From the NCBI GenBank assembly GCA_905236775.1, contig CAJOOM010000064.1:1-42747 (forward strand): DNA of 42,747 bases. Reading direction: 5' to 3'. The notes under the pieces are model-generated. The model made no database searches. It was not told where the DNA came from and worked only from the letters and a program-made list of their open reading frames with translations. The position numbers and the translations under genes are program-made. This stretch comes from Candidatus Gastranaerophilales bacterium. Lineage in GTDB: Bacteria; Cyanobacteriota; Vampirovibrionia; Gastranaerophilales; Gastranaerophilaceae. This document shows, one piece after another, positions 1-32,060 of the stretch (position 1 is the stretch's first letter; each line of letters opens with the position of its first letter).

Positions 1-2170
1 CGTCATGTTAAGAGCTGCAGCAAAGCTACCGTCAACATATCCGCCATTATTATGAATAAACGTTACTTGACCGTTTTCGATGTCACCATCAACACCATAC
101 TCAGCAAGTGATGCAAATAATTCGCCAAAAGTCTTTGTTCCGTCAACGTTAACCGTAGCTGTCGGGGTGCCGTCAGAACTATGGACAACAATCGTATTAT
201 TAGCATTAGTTACTGATATAAAATCTCCAATTACACTTGTATCTGTTGCAATTTGAGTCACAGAATAAGTCTTTTGGTCTGTTGATTGTGTTGTACCGAC
301 GGTTGTCGTTGTCTTAACGGTTGTATATGACGTAGACATCTTTAAGCCGTTATTTCCTGTGAATGAACCGTCAACATATCCGCCTTCATTATGAATAAAT
401 GTTACTTGACCGTTTTCTATATCACCGTCTACACCGTATTGAGCTAAAGATGCAAATAATTCGCCAAAAGTTTGTGAGCCGTCTACAGTAACAGTCTGTG
501 TAGCTTCTCCGTCATGGTCTTTTATTACCAGTTTATTATTTCCGCTGTTTATTGTTAGAAAATCATTGATAACACTACTATCATCCGCAATTTGCTCGCT
601 TTCGTAATTGAGTCCGCTTCCTGTAGTTGTTGAACCTACTGTCTTAACTGTTGTTATTGTCGTATAACTTGTATTTACTCCCATAGCGGTGACAAAACTT
701 CCGTCTACGTAACCGTTATTATCCGTTGTAAAGGTGATTCTGCCATCTTCAATATCACCATTTACACCGTATTCAGCTAAAGATGCAAATAATTCGCCAA
801 AAGTCTTTGTTCCGTCAACGGTGACTGTTTGTGTTGCATCTCCGTCTATATCATGAACTACTATTTTATTATTGCTACCGGAAATTGTAATAAAGTCATT
901 AATCGTACTGCCATCTGTCGCAACTACATTTTGAGTATAAGTCTTTGTTCCTGTAGTCTGAACACTTCCAATGGTTGCTGTTATTGTGACTGTATTATAT
1001 GTAGTCATTAAGCCTAAGTTCTCGGCTCCGGTTCCGTCAACATATCCATCAGAATTATGAACCAATGTAACTATGCCATCATGCAATGTTGCTTGCACAC
1101 CCAGTGACCCAAGTTGCTGGAACATATCGCTAAAAGTCATTGTATTATTTAAAGTAACCGTGCCTGTTGCATTACCGTTTTGGTCGTGGACTACCAAATC
1201 TCCGCTGGCTGTTGCATAGTCTTTTATTAAGTCGCTGTCTTCTGCAACTTTTATTGTTTCGTAAGATTTTCCTGCTGTAGTCTGTGTTCTGCCGACAGTA
1301 GCAGTTGTGACAATAGTATTATAAGATGTTGTAACACCAAATCTTTCGGCACCTGTACCATCTACATAACCGCCAATTCCGCTAACAAAGGTTACTACAC
1401 CATCGTGTAAGTCACCATCAACTCCATGTTCTGCAAGTTCGCCGAATAAATCAGCAAAAGTCATAGAATTGTTAAGTGTAACTGTTCCAACTATTGCGCC
1501 ATTTCCGTCTTTAACATTAATTACACCGCTTGCTGTTACATAATCTTTTATTAAATCATCGTCTGTAGCGGTTTTTACAATAGAAAAAGTTTTTGCAGTC
1601 GTAGTTTGAGTTCCCCCAACTGTACTTGTAGTAGTAACCGTTGTATAATTCGTATTAACACCAAGTGCAGCTGCAAAAGTTCCGTCTACATATCCGCCAT
1701 CGTTATCAGTAAATGAAACTCGTCCGTCACCAATATCACCATGAACACCCAATGGATTTAATGCGGCAAATAATTCACTAAACTTCATTGTATTTGTTAC
1801 AGTAACTGTTCCTGTCGCATTTCCGTCACGATCCTTTACAACAAGTTGATTGTTTGTGTTATCTATCGTTAAGAAATCATTGATAACACTCTCTGCTGTC
1901 GCATACTCAGGTTTCTGGTATGTTTTTGCAGATGTAGATTGTGTAGCTCCAAGTGTAGTTGTTTCAGTGATAGTTTCGTAAGTTGTACTCATTCCAAGTT
2001 CTGTCAACAAATCACCAGTAACATACAATTCTCTATTAGAATCAAACATTACTATGCCGTCATGGATTTCACCATCAACGTCATATCTGGATAAATCTGC
2101 AAATAATTGATCAAATGTAGTTGTATTGTTAACTGTAACCGTTCCTATTGCTTCTCCTGTGTGTTCATGA
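1..2170 (-). repeat. Intragenic tandem repeats of 324-339 bp in the giant fliD-like gene
   Basis: Seven in-frame units are recognised by the recurring core that reads on the plus strand as GCAAATAATTCGCCAAAAGT or a variant, with E-codon positions near 121, 460, 793, 1126, 1450, 1774 and 2107. Spacings are 339, 333, 333, 324, 324 and 333 bp, all multiples of three. Units nearest the window edge are most alike at DNA level. Units toward the N-terminus drift (TFADLFGEL, KFSELFAAL, TFDQLFADL), which suggests growth by recent duplication at the C-terminal side. The array probably continues beyond position 1. Confidence 0.9.
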
Positions 2171-3702
2171 ACAACAAGTGTTCTATCCAGAGGTAGATTT
2201 ACAAAATCGCTTATTGTTGCATCACTTGTCATGTAATTTACTTGCGAATAAGTTAAGGCTCTGGATCTGCTTCTCGTAGATAAGATATGCATGTTAGCTT
2301 CTACATCTAAGCCGAGTGAAGAAAGTAGATTCGTTCCTTTCTTATGTTCATCATCAACACCGACAATCGTATTGCTGGCGCAAAGGTCTATTACTTCTGA
2401 ATCGGTAAGAGTCCTATACTCACCACCACGCAGTGTTAAAACACCGGTTTGGGAATCTAAGTCCCCATCTATACCAACGTGTCCCAAGTCGCTGATTAAA
2501 TCAGCCATTGTTTGTCCGGAATAAATTGATAAATAAAACGTATCACTATCCGGATTCTTTACCTCAAAAAATCCCCTCGTTACACCCAAATCTTCCACAA
2601 GTTTTGTATTTAAATCGACAATATCAGGTACAATTATAGTTTCTGTAAGCATATTGCCTGTTACCATAGCGCTTTCAGGTTCTTCTGTTAAACCAAATAC
2701 ACTTACAGCATCAAATGTTCCGCCAACAATCTGTCCGCCTGTTATCTCAAGGCAGCCATCATTATTCAATGTGGCATATAAACCGGCACTTTTAAGCTGG
2801 TTTATAAAATCTCCAATTCTGGTATTACTGTTTACGGTAAAAGTAGTAATATTATTGTTTGTAGAATTTTGAACATTTACAGTTTTTGCAGAATTTAAGT
2901 AATCCGAACCAATACCTAAAGCTGCCAAATCTTCTCTATTAGCAATAAGTTGAGAAATTTTTGTATCTAAAACTGCATCAGTTTGTGTTGTTTTTATAGA
3001 TGAATATTGTAATTTTCCGGTTTCATATCCCTCATTTACACCATCAAGATGAAATAATTCTTTGAAATCTGCAGCGCCGGTACCGGTAATGCTGCTCAAA
3101 CTTGTATTAAGGCTTAACTTACCGCTCGTTTGATTATATCGTGCATCGACACCTATTGCTTGGAATTTGCTAACAATAGAGTCCATATTATCGTCTTTGC
3201 GAATAGTTAGTGAGTGCTTGACCCCATCCACATTAACATCAATATTCATTATTCCTGTTGAAGCTGTAGTTGTTGTTTTATATCCTTCTATATTTTCTAG
3301 TCTGGATGTTTCTGTCGCTTTTGACGTAGTCGTTATTGTGTCTTTATATTGGCTTTTTGCTTTAGTTAAAGTAGCTAATTTATCAACAGTAATATTATAT
3401 GTTTTTTCTTCAGCCTCTGATGTCGCACGCGCAAGCAATTTGTTAGTGTTTGATGATACAGCTAACTTTTGAGAAAATAAATCAGCGTTATTTAATCCCA
3501 ATTTTGATTCGGTTATTCTGGAAATAGAAGATCTAAAAGCAACAAAATATTGTTGAATATATGACAAAGCGGATTTGGAAACATTAATTGCTTCCTTTTT
3601 TTCCTCATACTTAGTTACCTTCGCCCGCTTAAGCGCAGTGAGCGATTCGACCCATTGGGAGGTATCTAATCCTGATGCTAATCCACTGAATGATATTGCC
3701 AT
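1..3702 (-). CDS. Giant FliD-like flagellar cap protein with tandem repeats (3' end outside window)
   Basis: The frame is open from ATG at 3702 to the window edge: 1,234 codons, read through with no in-frame stop. The N-terminus (SFSGLASGLDTSQWVE) is the FliD D0 signature and closely matches the second fliD at 7823-9574. FliD caps the flagellar filament and promotes flagellin assembly outside the cell. Residues about 1-160 look like the FliD N-terminal coiled region. After that come about ten segments resembling the flagellin hook-IN motif: three divergent ones near residues 178, 297 and 400, then seven regular units near 532, 643, 751, 859, 970, 1081 and 1194. A core reads TFGELFASLAEYGVDGDIE and is followed by GGYVDGSF and a Thr-rich linker. 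Typical FliD is 450-700 residues. The C-terminal D0/D1 half would lie beyond position 1 and is unseen, so an adhesin-like FliD derivative is possible. The start has AAGG about 8 nt upstream. Confidence 0.85.
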   Translation of the reverse strand, partial: MAISFSGLASGLDTSQWVESLTALKRAKVTKYEEKKEAINVSKSALSYIQQYFVAFRSSISRITESKLGLNNADLFSQKLAVSSNTNKLLARATSEAEEKTYNITVDKLATLTKAKSQYKDTITTTSKATETSRLENIEGYKTTTTASTGIMNIDVNVDGVKHSLTIRKDDNMDSIVSKFQAIGVDARYNQTSGKLSLNTSLSSITGTGAADFKELFHLDGVNEGYETGKLQYSSIKTTQTDAVLDTKISQLIANREDLAALGIGSDYLNSAKTVNVQNSTNNNITTFTVNSNTRIGDFINQLKSAGLYATLNNDGCLEITGGQIVGGTFDAVSVFGLTEEPESAMVTGNMLTETIIVPDIVDLNTKLVEDLGVTRGFFEVKNPDSDTFYLSIYSGQTMADLISDLGHVGIDGDLDSQTGVLTLRGGEYRTLTDSEVIDLCASNTIVGVDDEHKKGTNLLSSLGLDVEANMHILSTRSRSRALTYSQVNYMTSDATISDFVNLPLDRTLVVHEHTGEAIGTVTVNNTTTFDQLFADLSRYDVDGEIHDGIVMFDSNRELYVTGDLLTELGMSTTYETITETTTLGATQSTSAKTYQKPEYATAESVINDFLTIDNTNNQLVVKDRDGNATGTVTVTNTMKFSELFAALNPLGVHGDIGDGRVSFTDNDGGYVDGTFAAALGVNTNYTTVTTTSTVGGTQTTTAKTFSIVKTATDDDLIKDYVTASGVINVKDGNGAIVGTVTLNNSMTFADLFGELAEHGVDGDLHDGVVTFVSGIGGYVDGTGAERFGVTTSYNTIVTTATVGRTQTTAGKSYETIKVAEDSDLIKDYATASGDLVVHDQNGNATGTVTLNNTMTFSDMFQQLGSLGVQATLHDGIVTLVHNSDGYVDGTGAENLGLMTTYNTVTITATIGSVQTTGTKTYTQNVVATDGSTINDFITISGSNNKIVVHDIDGDATQTVTVDGTKTFGELFASLAEYGVNGDIEDGRITFTTDNNGYVDGSFVTAMGVNTSYTTITTVKTVGSTTTGSGLNYESEQIADDSSVINDFLTINSGNNKLVIKDHDGEATQTVTVDGSQTFGELFASLAQYGVDGDIENGQVTFIHNEGGYVDGSFTGNNGLKMSTSYTTVKTTTTVGTTQSTDQKTYSVTQIATDTSVIGDFISVTNANNTIVVHSSDGTPTATVNVDGTKTFGELFASLAEYGVDGDIENGQVTFIHNNGGYVDGSFAAALNMT

Positions 3703-3746: not shown

Positions 3747-3895
3747 TTTGGGGTAAGTGTCTTATTGTAGTTTTTTTGATGAATTAGTTCTTGTTTATAA
3801 AGAGTAAGTGTGTTCCTTAGCACTAATACTAAAAAGCATTTAGCACTTATTAATTATTCATCGTCTTACAAAACTTGGGGTATTGTCTTATAATA
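3747..3895. repeat. Pair of dispersed direct repeats in the giant fliD-like leader
   Basis: Two similar plus-strand stretches, TTTGGGGTAAGTGTCTTATT at about 3747-3766 and CTTGGGGTATTGTCTTATAA at about 3874-3893, lie about 127 bp apart in the 411-bp gene-free stretch 3703-4113. Both fall in the predicted leader. Purpose unknown. Apart from these, the leader hairpin and the promoter, nothing else was recognised in this stretch. Confidence 0.4.
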
Positions 3896-7822: not shown

Positions 7823-9574
7823 TTATATACTAATACCTCCGGATGTAAATGATTGATAATTTTGTTGCATTGTAGCAATCATATTTTCCATTGCTTGAAA
7901 TTTCTTTTCAAGTTGAGCTTTATAAGTAGATATACTTGAATTTTTCTTTGTAATTCTTTCTTGAGTTTTCTTTATATTTGAATCTAAAGTTGCAGTTTTT
8001 ATATCAAAGAAGCCGCTTGATGCTTTTAGACTTTGCTCAATGGTGTTTTCCATCATTCCAAATATACCATTTTCATTTGTAAGCAAAGATTTTACAGAAT
8101 CAGGATTTTCCGCGAGAGCTGCAAGAAGTTTATCCTTATCAAAGCTTAATGCGTTAGTATCAGCATTTAAATTATTTGCATCTGCAGAAGCTGTTGTAAT
8201 ACCAATTTCTGAAAGCAAGTTGTATACTCCGCCATTTGTATTATTTGCTCCATTTGCAAAATTTCTCACTGTGTTTTTCAAGCTTGTAAGTGAAGATTCC
8301 CCGTGAAGTTCTGCACCTGTTGCTGTGACGGTATCAATTTTTTCAATGAATGAATTATATGCTGATACAAAATTTTCTAATGCATCTACCAAACCCGATG
8401 AGTCTTGATTTATGCTTAAAGTTGTTTTTCCATCTTCTTCAGTACTTGTTCTTTTCAAATTCAATGTAACACCATCAATTCTTGAAATATCTGAGGTTAC
8501 TGTATTCGATGTAGAAGTTATACTTGTTCCATTAACTGTAAATATGGCATTTTTTCCAAGTTCTTGAGCATTTGTATACATTTGAGAATTTACTAAATTG
8601 CCGTCTTCGTCCCATTCAGAATTAGTAAATCCCATAACATCAGTAAAATTACTTGTTCCTGCTTCTATATTTATATATGACGCACCTTCTTTTGTAGATG
8701 CAATGGATAATTTTCCTGTTGCATCATCCCAGTATGCGTATGCCTGAGCTTTATCGTTAGAATTAATATCTGAAATCAAAGACGACAATGTCGTATTTTC
8801 ATTTATTGTAAACTCAGCATCACCTATTGTAAAAGTACCTGCTTTTATTTGTTCTTTAAAACCGGCATCATTAGCAGTCAGAAGAGAAGAAATGCTTGCT
8901 TTATAAATTGAATTAGAAGAAATGTATGTACCATCTTCTTGTCTTTCAATTCCTGTAAGTGATACGAAATTTGAACTATCTGTTGTTGCTCCTATGTGTA
9001 TCGTATCAGTGTTGTTTGCAGCAGAAAATTCCATAACTCCGTCTTCATTAATATTGAAGTTTATGCCTGCTTCAGAAAATAAAGTTTTCAAAGAACCAAC
9101 AGTATCGTCTGTCCCTATATTTATAACTTTTTTGGCTCCATTTACATAACAAGTAAGAGAGCCTGAACCTATTCCAAGGTTCTTTAACAATGTAGAATCA
9201 TCAGCAATATTACTTGCGGATTCCAATGATGTCGCTTTTGTAAATGTTGCTAGCTGCTGGACCGTAATATCATAATTTTGTTTTAAAGCTCCAGAAAGGG
9301 CTGTAGCAGTAAAAATTTCAGCATTAGATGATTCTGCATTTGTTCTTGCAAACAAATCGAAAGTTCCGCCGAATTTAGCGTCAGTAAGTTTTTCAATTGC
9401 TGTTCTCAGTGAAGACACAGCGCTTCTTGTGTCATTTAAAACACTTTTTGTTGTTTGCTGTGAAACAAGTGTTTTTTGCATTTTTGAAACATCTGCTTGT
9501 TTTACAGAAATCAGTGCTTCCACCCAAGAGGATGTATCTAAACCTGAAACTAAACCGCTAAATGATATTGACAT
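7823..9574 (-). CDS. fliD: FliD, flagellar filament cap (hook-associated protein 2)
   Basis: 583 residues, within the usual FliD range. The N-terminus SFSGLVSGLDTSSWVEALIS is the D0 signature. Hook-IN-like segments occur near residues 180 (TVGSLKTLFSEAGINF) and 258 (TLSSLISDINSNDK). The C-terminus (about residues 530-583) is a coiled coil ending near QAMENMIATMQQNYQSF, the FliD D0 C-terminal helix. It caps the growing flagellar filament outside the cell. Exported FliD usually lacks Cys; one is present here (LTCYVN). Two promoters are visible upstream: a sigma-28 site at 9709-9735 and a sigma-70 site at 9641-9669. It is a paralogue of the giant gene at 1-3702, sharing the N-terminal domain. 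Confidence 0.93.
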   Translation of the reverse strand: MSISFSGLVSGLDTSSWVEALISVKQADVSKMQKTLVSQQTTKSVLNDTRSAVSSLRTAIEKLTDAKFGGTFDLFARTNAESSNAEIFTATALSGALKQNYDITVQQLATFTKATSLESASNIADDSTLLKNLGIGSGSLTCYVNGAKKVINIGTDDTVGSLKTLFSEAGINFNINEDGVMEFSAANNTDTIHIGATTDSSNFVSLTGIERQEDGTYISSNSIYKASISSLLTANDAGFKEQIKAGTFTIGDAEFTINENTTLSSLISDINSNDKAQAYAYWDDATGKLSIASTKEGASYINIEAGTSNFTDVMGFTNSEWDEDGNLVNSQMYTNAQELGKNAIFTVNGTSITSTSNTVTSDISRIDGVTLNLKRTSTEEDGKTTLSINQDSSGLVDALENFVSAYNSFIEKIDTVTATGAELHGESSLTSLKNTVRNFANGANNTNGGVYNLLSEIGITTASADANNLNADTNALSFDKDKLLAALAENPDSVKSLLTNENGIFGMMENTIEQSLKASSGFFDIKTATLDSNIKKTQERITKKNSSISTYKAQLEKKFQAMENMIATMQQNYQSFTSGGISI

Positions 9575-30862: not shown

Positions 30863-31987
30863 TTAAATCAAGTTTAATGCTATTGACGGCATTTGGTTAG
30901 CTGTGGATAGAAGTGTTGCAGCAGATTGTTGTAAGATTTGGTACTTAATATAATCTGATGATGATTTTGCTACGTCTTCATCCTTGATTGTTGAATTTGC
31001 TTCTGTTAAGTTAGATCTTTGTACATCTGTTGCATCAATTGCTGATTGCAATCTGTTCATGTATGCACCAATTTTTGTACATCTTAGTGATATATTATCA
31101 ATTGCCTTATCGATTTGGTCAATAAAATCACGTGCAGATGAATCGTTTCTATAAATAGCATTACACATATTAGTAATAGAAATTGTCTTTCCGTCTTGTG
31201 TCTTAACAATTGTAGCATCTCCGTCTGCCGGTGTAATTACACCATTTTCTGCAAGTGCTGCGGCTAGAGCAGTTTTATATGACCCCGGTAAGTAGTAATT
31301 TGGATCATTAATATCTTCATACATAGGAGAACCATCAGAATTCAATCGTCTTGCTCTGTATGGATATGTTGTATCAGTAGTGCTTGATGTTAAATCAATA
31401 TATCCTGGTCTGTTAGGAACACTAGTATCATTCATACTTCTAAAACCAAAGATTACTGTGGATTTAGCACTGTCAAACAAGAATGCATCCATTTTGATTA
31501 CGCATCTTTTGTTTGAATACAAACCTACTTGCAAGTTAATATCACTTTGTCTGGAACCATCAAGTAAATATGTGTCATTAAAATCTGTTATTTGGCACAA
31601 ACGGTTAATTTCGTCCATTCTTTGTGTTACTTCAAGATTTAATGCATTCAGAGAAGCTGAGCCATAAGTTCCGTTTGCTGCTTGCATGGTCAAATCTCTG
31701 ATTCTTTGTAAATAATCACCGATGATGTCTAAAACTCCTTCTTGGGTTGTTAACATGTCTAAACCCATTTGAGAGTTCTTTTCAATAATGTCATAACCGC
31801 TGATTTTTGCTTCCATACCTGCTGATACTGCATAACCTGCGGCATCATCTTTTGCTGAATTAATACGAAAGCCTGTTGATAATCTTTCCATTGCTTGATT
31901 CATACCTCTGGTTGCTTGAGTGAGGTACTTTTGACAGGTCAATGACGAAAGATTCGTGTTGATTGTAATTGCTGCTGTCGATGTCAT
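30863..31987 (-). CDS. Flagellin
   Basis: 374 residues. The N-terminal D0/D1 motif reads INTNLSSLTCQKYLTQATRG, then MERLSTGFRINSAKDDAAGYAVS, the flagellin signature recognised by FliS/FliC-type export. The C-terminal D1/D0 reads GAYMNRLQSAIDATDVQRSN and KYQILQQSAATLLSTANQMP. The variable central part (about 165-280) is Thr/Asp/Tyr-rich. Five cysteines are present (SLTCQ, RLCQI, KRCVI, NMCNA, LRCTK), unusual for flagellin, whose family generally avoids Cys. AAAGGAAA lies 6 nt before ATG. It has its own sigma-28 promoter and terminator, so it is a monocistronic late flagellar gene. No fliS or flaG adjacent. Confidence 0.95.
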   Translation of the reverse strand: MTSTAAITINTNLSSLTCQKYLTQATRGMNQAMERLSTGFRINSAKDDAAGYAVSAGMEAKISGYDIIEKNSQMGLDMLTTQEGVLDIIGDYLQRIRDLTMQAANGTYGSASLNALNLEVTQRMDEINRLCQITDFNDTYLLDGSRQSDINLQVGLYSNKRCVIKMDAFLFDSAKSTVIFGFRSMNDTSVPNRPGYIDLTSSTTDTTYPYRARRLNSDGSPMYEDINDPNYYLPGSYKTALAAALAENGVITPADGDATIVKTQDGKTISITNMCNAIYRNDSSARDFIDQIDKAIDNISLRCTKIGAYMNRLQSAIDATDVQRSNLTEANSTIKDEDVAKSSSDYIKYQILQQSAATLLSTANQMPSIALNLI

Positions 31988-32033: not shown

Positions 32034-32060
32034 TTATCGACAAAAAGTTGTAAAACTTTA
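32034..32060 (-). promoter_or_regulatory. Sigma-28 promoter of the flagellin gene
   Basis: Minus strand TAAAGTTT, exactly 11 nt, GTCGATAA: fifteen of sixteen positions of the FliA consensus. Predicted leader about 40 nt. Confidence 0.85.

Follow-up and report, generated by a model that had tools for sequence, protein, structure and literature searches.

A giant paralogue of the flagellar cap protein FliD with an array of repeated head-type units in Gastranaerophilales

Introduction

How does a gene that opens as a flagellar filament cap come to run for more than a thousand codons without a stop, and what might such a protein do? The question is raised by one end of contig CAJOOM010000064.1 (GenBank assembly GCA_905236775.1), a stretch of 42,747 nucleotides from Candidatus Gastranaerophilales bacterium that is analysed here whole and called the window. 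Positions 1..3702 (minus strand) hold the N-terminal part of a giant fliD paralogue, 1,234 codons from an ATG at 3702 down to base 1 without a stop; there the contig end cuts the gene. The window is contig C64 in full; its left edge is the contig end, with no sequence to read beyond position 1. The source genome is a 2.1-Mb draft of 181 contigs, 94% complete.

To our knowledge, FliD is a small, conserved chaperone cap whose head varies by one or two domains only. The evidence set out in this article strongly supports a genuine new variant of the FliD family, undescribed in the literature that could be searched; the search found no paper on a giant FliD, nor one on the FliD of Gastranaerophilales.

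The giant gene in the window

The protein begins as a FliD should. The Pfam domain FliD_N (PF02465), the N-terminal part of the D0/D1 cap leg, is matched at residues 10-111 (3370..3675, minus strand) with an expectation value (E) of 4e-14 and 53 bits against a cut-off of 24.8. Behind it, on the same strand, come ten head-type segments. The first three are irregular (2395..3318; residues 129-241, 259-344 and 364-436) and are matched by an iterated unit profile at E 2e-9 to 1e-12. The same profile finds regular units 4 (1912..2229; residues 492-597), 5 (1579..1902; 601-708) and 6 (1255..1569; 712-816). Profile and structural model together define units 7 (931..1245; 820-924), 8 (598..921; 928-1035) and 9 (256..588; 1039-1149), unit 7 being a beta-alpha bead followed by a threonine-rich linker of ~30 residues. 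Unit 10 (4..249; 1152-1233) is cut by the contig end and is 66-67% identical to units 8 and 9.

The regular units start at residues 492, 601, 712, 820, 928, 1039 and 1152, giving successive periods of 109, 111, 108, 108, 111 and 113 residues. When units 4-10 were compared one by one, all 21 of the 21 pairs matched at E<1e-5, and none of 200 residue-shuffle trials did. A self-BLAST of the whole window protein gave no off-diagonal matches, probably because the full-length diagonal swallows them. Likeness rises towards the contig edge: units 8-10 are 58-67% identical to one another, and identity between unit 4 and the rest is 41-45%.

A first-pass annotation, made from the letters alone, had described a FliD N-terminus, at least 1,234 codons, about ten head-type segments with seven regular units of 108-113 residues, and the greatest likeness among the edge-side repeats. 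Domain match, profile and shuffles bear out this description, and the identities agree with it. Its further claim, that the units are hook-IN-like, stands in part. The predicted fold and the profile homology to the head of ordinary FliD, both given below, support it, but the Pfam hook-IN family PF07196 was matched neither by the whole window protein (E up to 0.1) nor by single units (E up to 10), in searches whose HMMER filters may drop weak matches. Matches of the arrays to OTU1_UBXL, SAMP2, CBS, TubC_N and similar Pfam families were put down to chance, being sums of weak repeats in which no single stretch passes.

A family of giant FliD paralogues

The window gene has relatives that are whole. 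In 32 intact giants a single frame carries FliD_N, the array and FliD_C, with 1,200-6,589 residues and 7-35 units. A giant frame with FliD_N or FliD_C occurs in at least 24 of 34 genomes of the same genus (the source genome included), and the sister genera g31 and g44 also carry giants. Across 382 genomes sampled from the whole class, the giant-type N-terminus (E<1e-69) is confined to these three genera, with ordinary FliD set apart at E 1e-57 or weaker. The giants form a single clade beside ordinary FliD (ultrafast bootstrap 99, SH-like approximate likelihood ratio test 96) in a tree that left out the ordinary FliDs of g31 and g44. The first-pass annotation had named the gene a giant FliD paralogue, to be given up if the C-terminal domain were missing or the unit fold unrelated; the intact relatives supply the domain, the predicted unit fold is flagellar, and for the family both results favour a FliD paralogue. 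Several of the relatives' records come from gut or rumen (rumen, yak, sheep, goat and horse gut). The giant loci are scattered, without a fixed flagellar neighbourhood.

Two further observations concern the extent of the family. Tandem giants of ~5,000 and 1,300-1,400 codons, 20-30 bases apart, occur at L038 (G013:C36:1154-21614) and at L042/L043 (G005:C12), and possibly represent co-assembling subunits. Other genera of the family have weak FliD_N matches, below the curated cut-off, in frames of 960-6,511 residues (G141:C9:19053-19328, G201:C2:73428-73682, G247:C29, G235:C10 and G183:C11); these are possibly more diverged giants. A viral origin was considered and set aside, as an alignment of giant N-termini found no relatives in IMG/VR.

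The missing C-terminal half

If the window holds only the front of the gene, where is the rest? Besides the ordinary fliD, the only FliD_C in the genome lies on contig C3 (E 3e-29), in a frame of 1,598 codons that runs off the contig end. This frame has eleven units of the same profile class as those of the window, and a profile built from the seven regular window units matches the C3 array at E 4e-42. The edge-side units of C3 are likewise the most alike (C1/C2 87%), as would be expected if a short-read assembly broke inside the array. One intact giant, that of G008, matches the window half better than any other intact giant does and ranks among the top intact matches to the C3 half.

On the simplest reading, the window gene and the C3 frame are probably one gene of at least 2,832 codons. 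They could instead be two separate cut giants, an arrangement that would alter the join and not the function, and that we rate as clearly the less probable. Several relatives do have two giants, the ends of C64 and C3 have no exact 16-mer in common and no suffix-prefix overlap, and deoC, a neighbour of the window gene, and the phosphorylase-like gene beside the C3 frame did not share a contig in any of the 57 relatives searched. Against separate genes, a genome that is 94% complete yields just one N-half and just one C-half of a giant. A contig end cuts each of them within the array, where neighbouring units are most alike, and the G008 giant and the reach of the window profile likewise favour a single gene. 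Neither shared k-mers or overlap at the contig ends nor synteny could make the join, the flanking genes not being neighbours in relatives and the giant loci lacking a fixed neighbourhood.

Predicted structure

An AlphaFold2 model of three units predicts for each a compact bead of ~78 residues (strand, strand, helix, strand, strand and a short strand-helix) with a predicted local distance difference test score (pLDDT) of 60-93 over the block, and a threonine-rich linker of ~30 residues with pLDDT <50. A Foldseek search with the unit model returned nothing at E<0.001, and only a second look with VIA-align places flagellar folds first: the bead matches head domains of FlgK, FliD and flagellin at a moderate Z of ~5.0-6.5, and the best 22 rows are all flagellar.

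The window gene was modelled as units; the full leg and head (D0/D1 and D2/D3) were modelled on the shortest intact giant, of 1,200 residues. Its predicted long leg helices span residues 14-68 and 1143-1199 (pLDDT ~90). Against Salmonella FliD in the cap-filament complex, model residues 11-1200 give Z 23.1 over 420 of 442 residues (Foldseek E 2e-15). The model of this relative is thus that of a whole FliD in which the array forms a loop inserted in the head.

Evolution of the array

Two stretches of the ordinary FliD in this genome, residues 124-225 (E 7e-18) and 238-338 (E 2e-5), are also matched by the iterated unit profile, which makes the array look like the head domain of FliD duplicated repeatedly. 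A profile of only the seven window units fails to reach this FliD (best shuffle E 0.025); the sequence connection between array and ordinary FliD accordingly relies on the iterated profile, together with the paralogue tree and the fold.

Orthologue pairs align over most of their length, and the ratio of non-synonymous to synonymous substitution rates (dN/dS) is 0.08-0.15 where dS is computable, a rough figure as dS is near saturation. Such ratios suggest that selection maintains the arrays. Species differ in unit number, since orthologues with 82-85% identical ends hold 17, 24 and 27 units; the copy-number variation that had been foreseen from the likeness of the edge-side repeats is thus supported between species.

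Might the giant be an assembly artefact or a decaying pseudogene? The source draft is fragmented and the contig stops within the window gene, and many giants in relatives are cut at contig ends too. Set against this are the 32 intact frames, stop-free for up to 19.8 kb, orthologue ratios well below 1, and several giants deep within long contigs (for example G207:C1 of 443 kb and G176:C2 of 335 kb). We consider an artefact or pseudogene extremely improbable for this gene, and for the family as a whole it is refuted.

Inserts in the largest giants

The largest giants have stretches of 200-1,650 residues between units that contain GLUG motifs and the related M26 N-terminal region; other inserts are threonine-rich repeats. 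No recognised insert is present in either half from the source genome, in the window part or on C3. In one giant only, an acyl-carrier-protein domain (PP-binding, E 2.5e-12, with a DSLD motif) was seen within a GLUG insert at L040:8081-9436 (G014:C7).

Other flagellar genes and regulation

The giant is not the only FliD of this bacterium. An ordinary fliD lies in the window at 7823..9574 (minus strand), encoding 583 residues with FliD_N, FliD_C (Pfam) and about two head segments. The NCBIfam FliD equivalog cut-off of 469 bits is missed by the window part of the giant (32 bits), by the C3 half (56 bits) and by this ordinary FliD (130 bits); since the ordinary protein fails too, these models evidently do not cover the lineage. 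Flagellins and a flagellar FlhA are present in the genome. One flagellin gene, among six flagellin-domain matches in the genome, is at 30863..31987 (minus strand). The sequence upstream of it reads as a promoter box, TAAAGTTT-N11-GTCGATAA (32034..32060, minus strand), which we take to resemble the sigma-28 consensus and which suggests that the gene belongs to a flagellar late-gene regulon.

Clear sigma-28-like boxes were not seen ahead of the giants. About half of them share another motif, present before the window gene as TTACCCCAA (3748..3756, minus strand). Of 41 giant genes, 19 have the box ([AT]ACCCC, mostly TTACCCC(A/G)A) in the 160 bases ahead of them, usually at a distance of 22-79 bases from the start; it is rare elsewhere (8 of 206 other open reading frames; Fisher p 2e-11, an optimistic value as related species are not independent). 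It possibly marks a regulon of giant fliD genes.

Most genomes of the order that were tested have two full-length copies of FlhA/FHIPEP and a third protein of ~490 residues that matches only the C-terminal half of FlhA; the matches in the source genome are G000:C172:9884-11875, G000:C17:210-2186 and G000:C3:47780-48832. A second export apparatus, flagellar or otherwise, is possible. Within the genus, flagellin-domain matches number up to 13 per genome, and Flagellin_N also occurs in giant flagellin frames of 1,113-1,380 residues (G025:C1:20021-20422, G003:C74:16077-16472 and G028:C6:87-503).

What the giants may do

We favour, at slightly better than even confidence, the view that the giant is an accessory cap paralogue that presents long flexible head arms at the tip of the flagellum, probably for adhesion. 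The two ends of the protein would form ordinary D0/D1 leg domains. Between them, a head of about two small beta-alpha domains would have grown as one of these domains was duplicated over and over, leaving a string of compact beads on threonine-rich linkers. The giant would be exported unfolded through the flagellar channel, as other axial proteins are, and its legs may then dock at the filament tip, alone or mixed with ordinary FliD. The arrays, as several arms, could reach mucus, plant fibre or neighbouring cells and grip them, and in the largest relatives the arms may additionally bear GLUG blocks like those of large surface proteins.

The presence of an ordinary FliD in the same genome means that the giant is probably dispensable for filament growth. 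The published record offers some precedent. In Pseudomonas, filaments form even without the FliD head, and a larger Helicobacter head can take its place (PMC8533109), so a giant head should be tolerable. FliD-mediated adhesion to mucin is known in Pseudomonas (Arora 1998, as cited in PMC8533109), and C. difficile mutants in fliD show weaker mucus binding, although they also lack flagella (PMC12713411). Given this head tolerance and mucin or mucus binding, adhesion in gut or rumen would be the likeliest function, a role made plausible, by analogy, by the GLUG inserts of the largest members, the habitat and the published mucin binding.

The main rival is a passive spacer or tall cap, which would shield the growing tip or alter hydrodynamics or antigenicity, bind no specific ligand and drift in repeat number by recombination. 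The units are indeed ordinary flagellar head beads without a known binding domain, their number varies among orthologues and the linkers are predicted to be disordered. GLUG blocks inserted between units, and purifying selection across the whole length, are less easily explained by a passive structure, and we regard a spacer as unlikely, if well worth keeping in mind. Less probable again is a cell-surface or secreted adhesin that has borrowed the FliD ends as export signal and leg and works away from filament tips, either shed or retained at the hook or on the cell surface. Such a protein would fit a genome whose ordinary FliD makes the giant unnecessary as a cap, and giant loci that are scattered, with no fixed flagellar neighbourhood, but the leg is conserved in both its halves, and the shortest giant, modelled over its full length, comes out as a complete FliD.

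Several facts weigh against the tip-borne adhesive arm. The C-terminus of the window gene is not on its own contig, the C3 half being the best candidate only. No ligand-binding domain was recognised in the window gene. The fold scores of the units are moderate, as noted, and the near-saturated dS makes the selection ratios rough. Some near-complete genomes of the same genus (G011, G019) show no giant, and the giant is therefore not needed for flagella. Display at the cell surface could also do without a filament.

A more specific picture of these arms is tentative and falls somewhat short of even confidence. In it, a gut lineage of three Gastranaerophilales genera would have turned the flagellar tip into long tentacles, the head expanding and capturing GLUG blocks, possibly mixed with ordinary FliD, to make a grappling device of changeable reach, perhaps controlled through the upstream TTACCCC box. 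If so, the few giant subunits, the longest with 6,589 residues, would rank with the largest substrates of flagellar export. A clade of cap paralogues that is up to eleven-fold enlarged, under selection and changing in copy number suggests that the tip of a flagellum can carry long repeat arms. The giants also make testable the protein size limit of the export channel, the mixing of caps and the attachment of uncultured non-photosynthetic cyanobacteria in gut and rumen.

Comparison with known systems

The nearest known relative is FliD itself (HAP2; PF02465 with PF07195). With it the giants have in common the two end domains, a predicted D0-D1-D2/D3 fold (Z 23 to Salmonella FliD for the 1,200-residue relative) and head beads of one fold class. 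They differ in scale, at 1,200-6,589 residues and 7-35 units compared with 583 residues for the ordinary FliD of the source genome and 440-673 positions in the NCBIfam models, and in coexisting with an ordinary FliD. The FliDs of Helicobacter and Campylobacter with extra head domains (D4 and beyond) are likewise caps enlarged in the head, and a link of D4 to heparin binding has been proposed for C. jejuni (PMC7316729). Those proteins have one or two extra domains, whereas the giants have dozens of duplicated beads together with GLUG blocks.

Giant flagellins of more than 1,000 residues (Bermanella and Oleibacter; PMC6248924) offer a parallel in another axial protein, with conserved ends and a hugely enlarged exposed middle. 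Flagellin, however, forms the whole filament; a giant FliD is a cap paralogue of which few copies would be expected at the tip, and it is far longer (up to 6,589 residues). Finally, the GLUG blocks between the units of the largest giants recall GLUG-repeat surface proteins (PF07581, and the N-terminal region of IgA1 protease, PF05342). Here the carrier of those blocks is a FliD, and GLUG blocks are absent from the window part and the C3 half.

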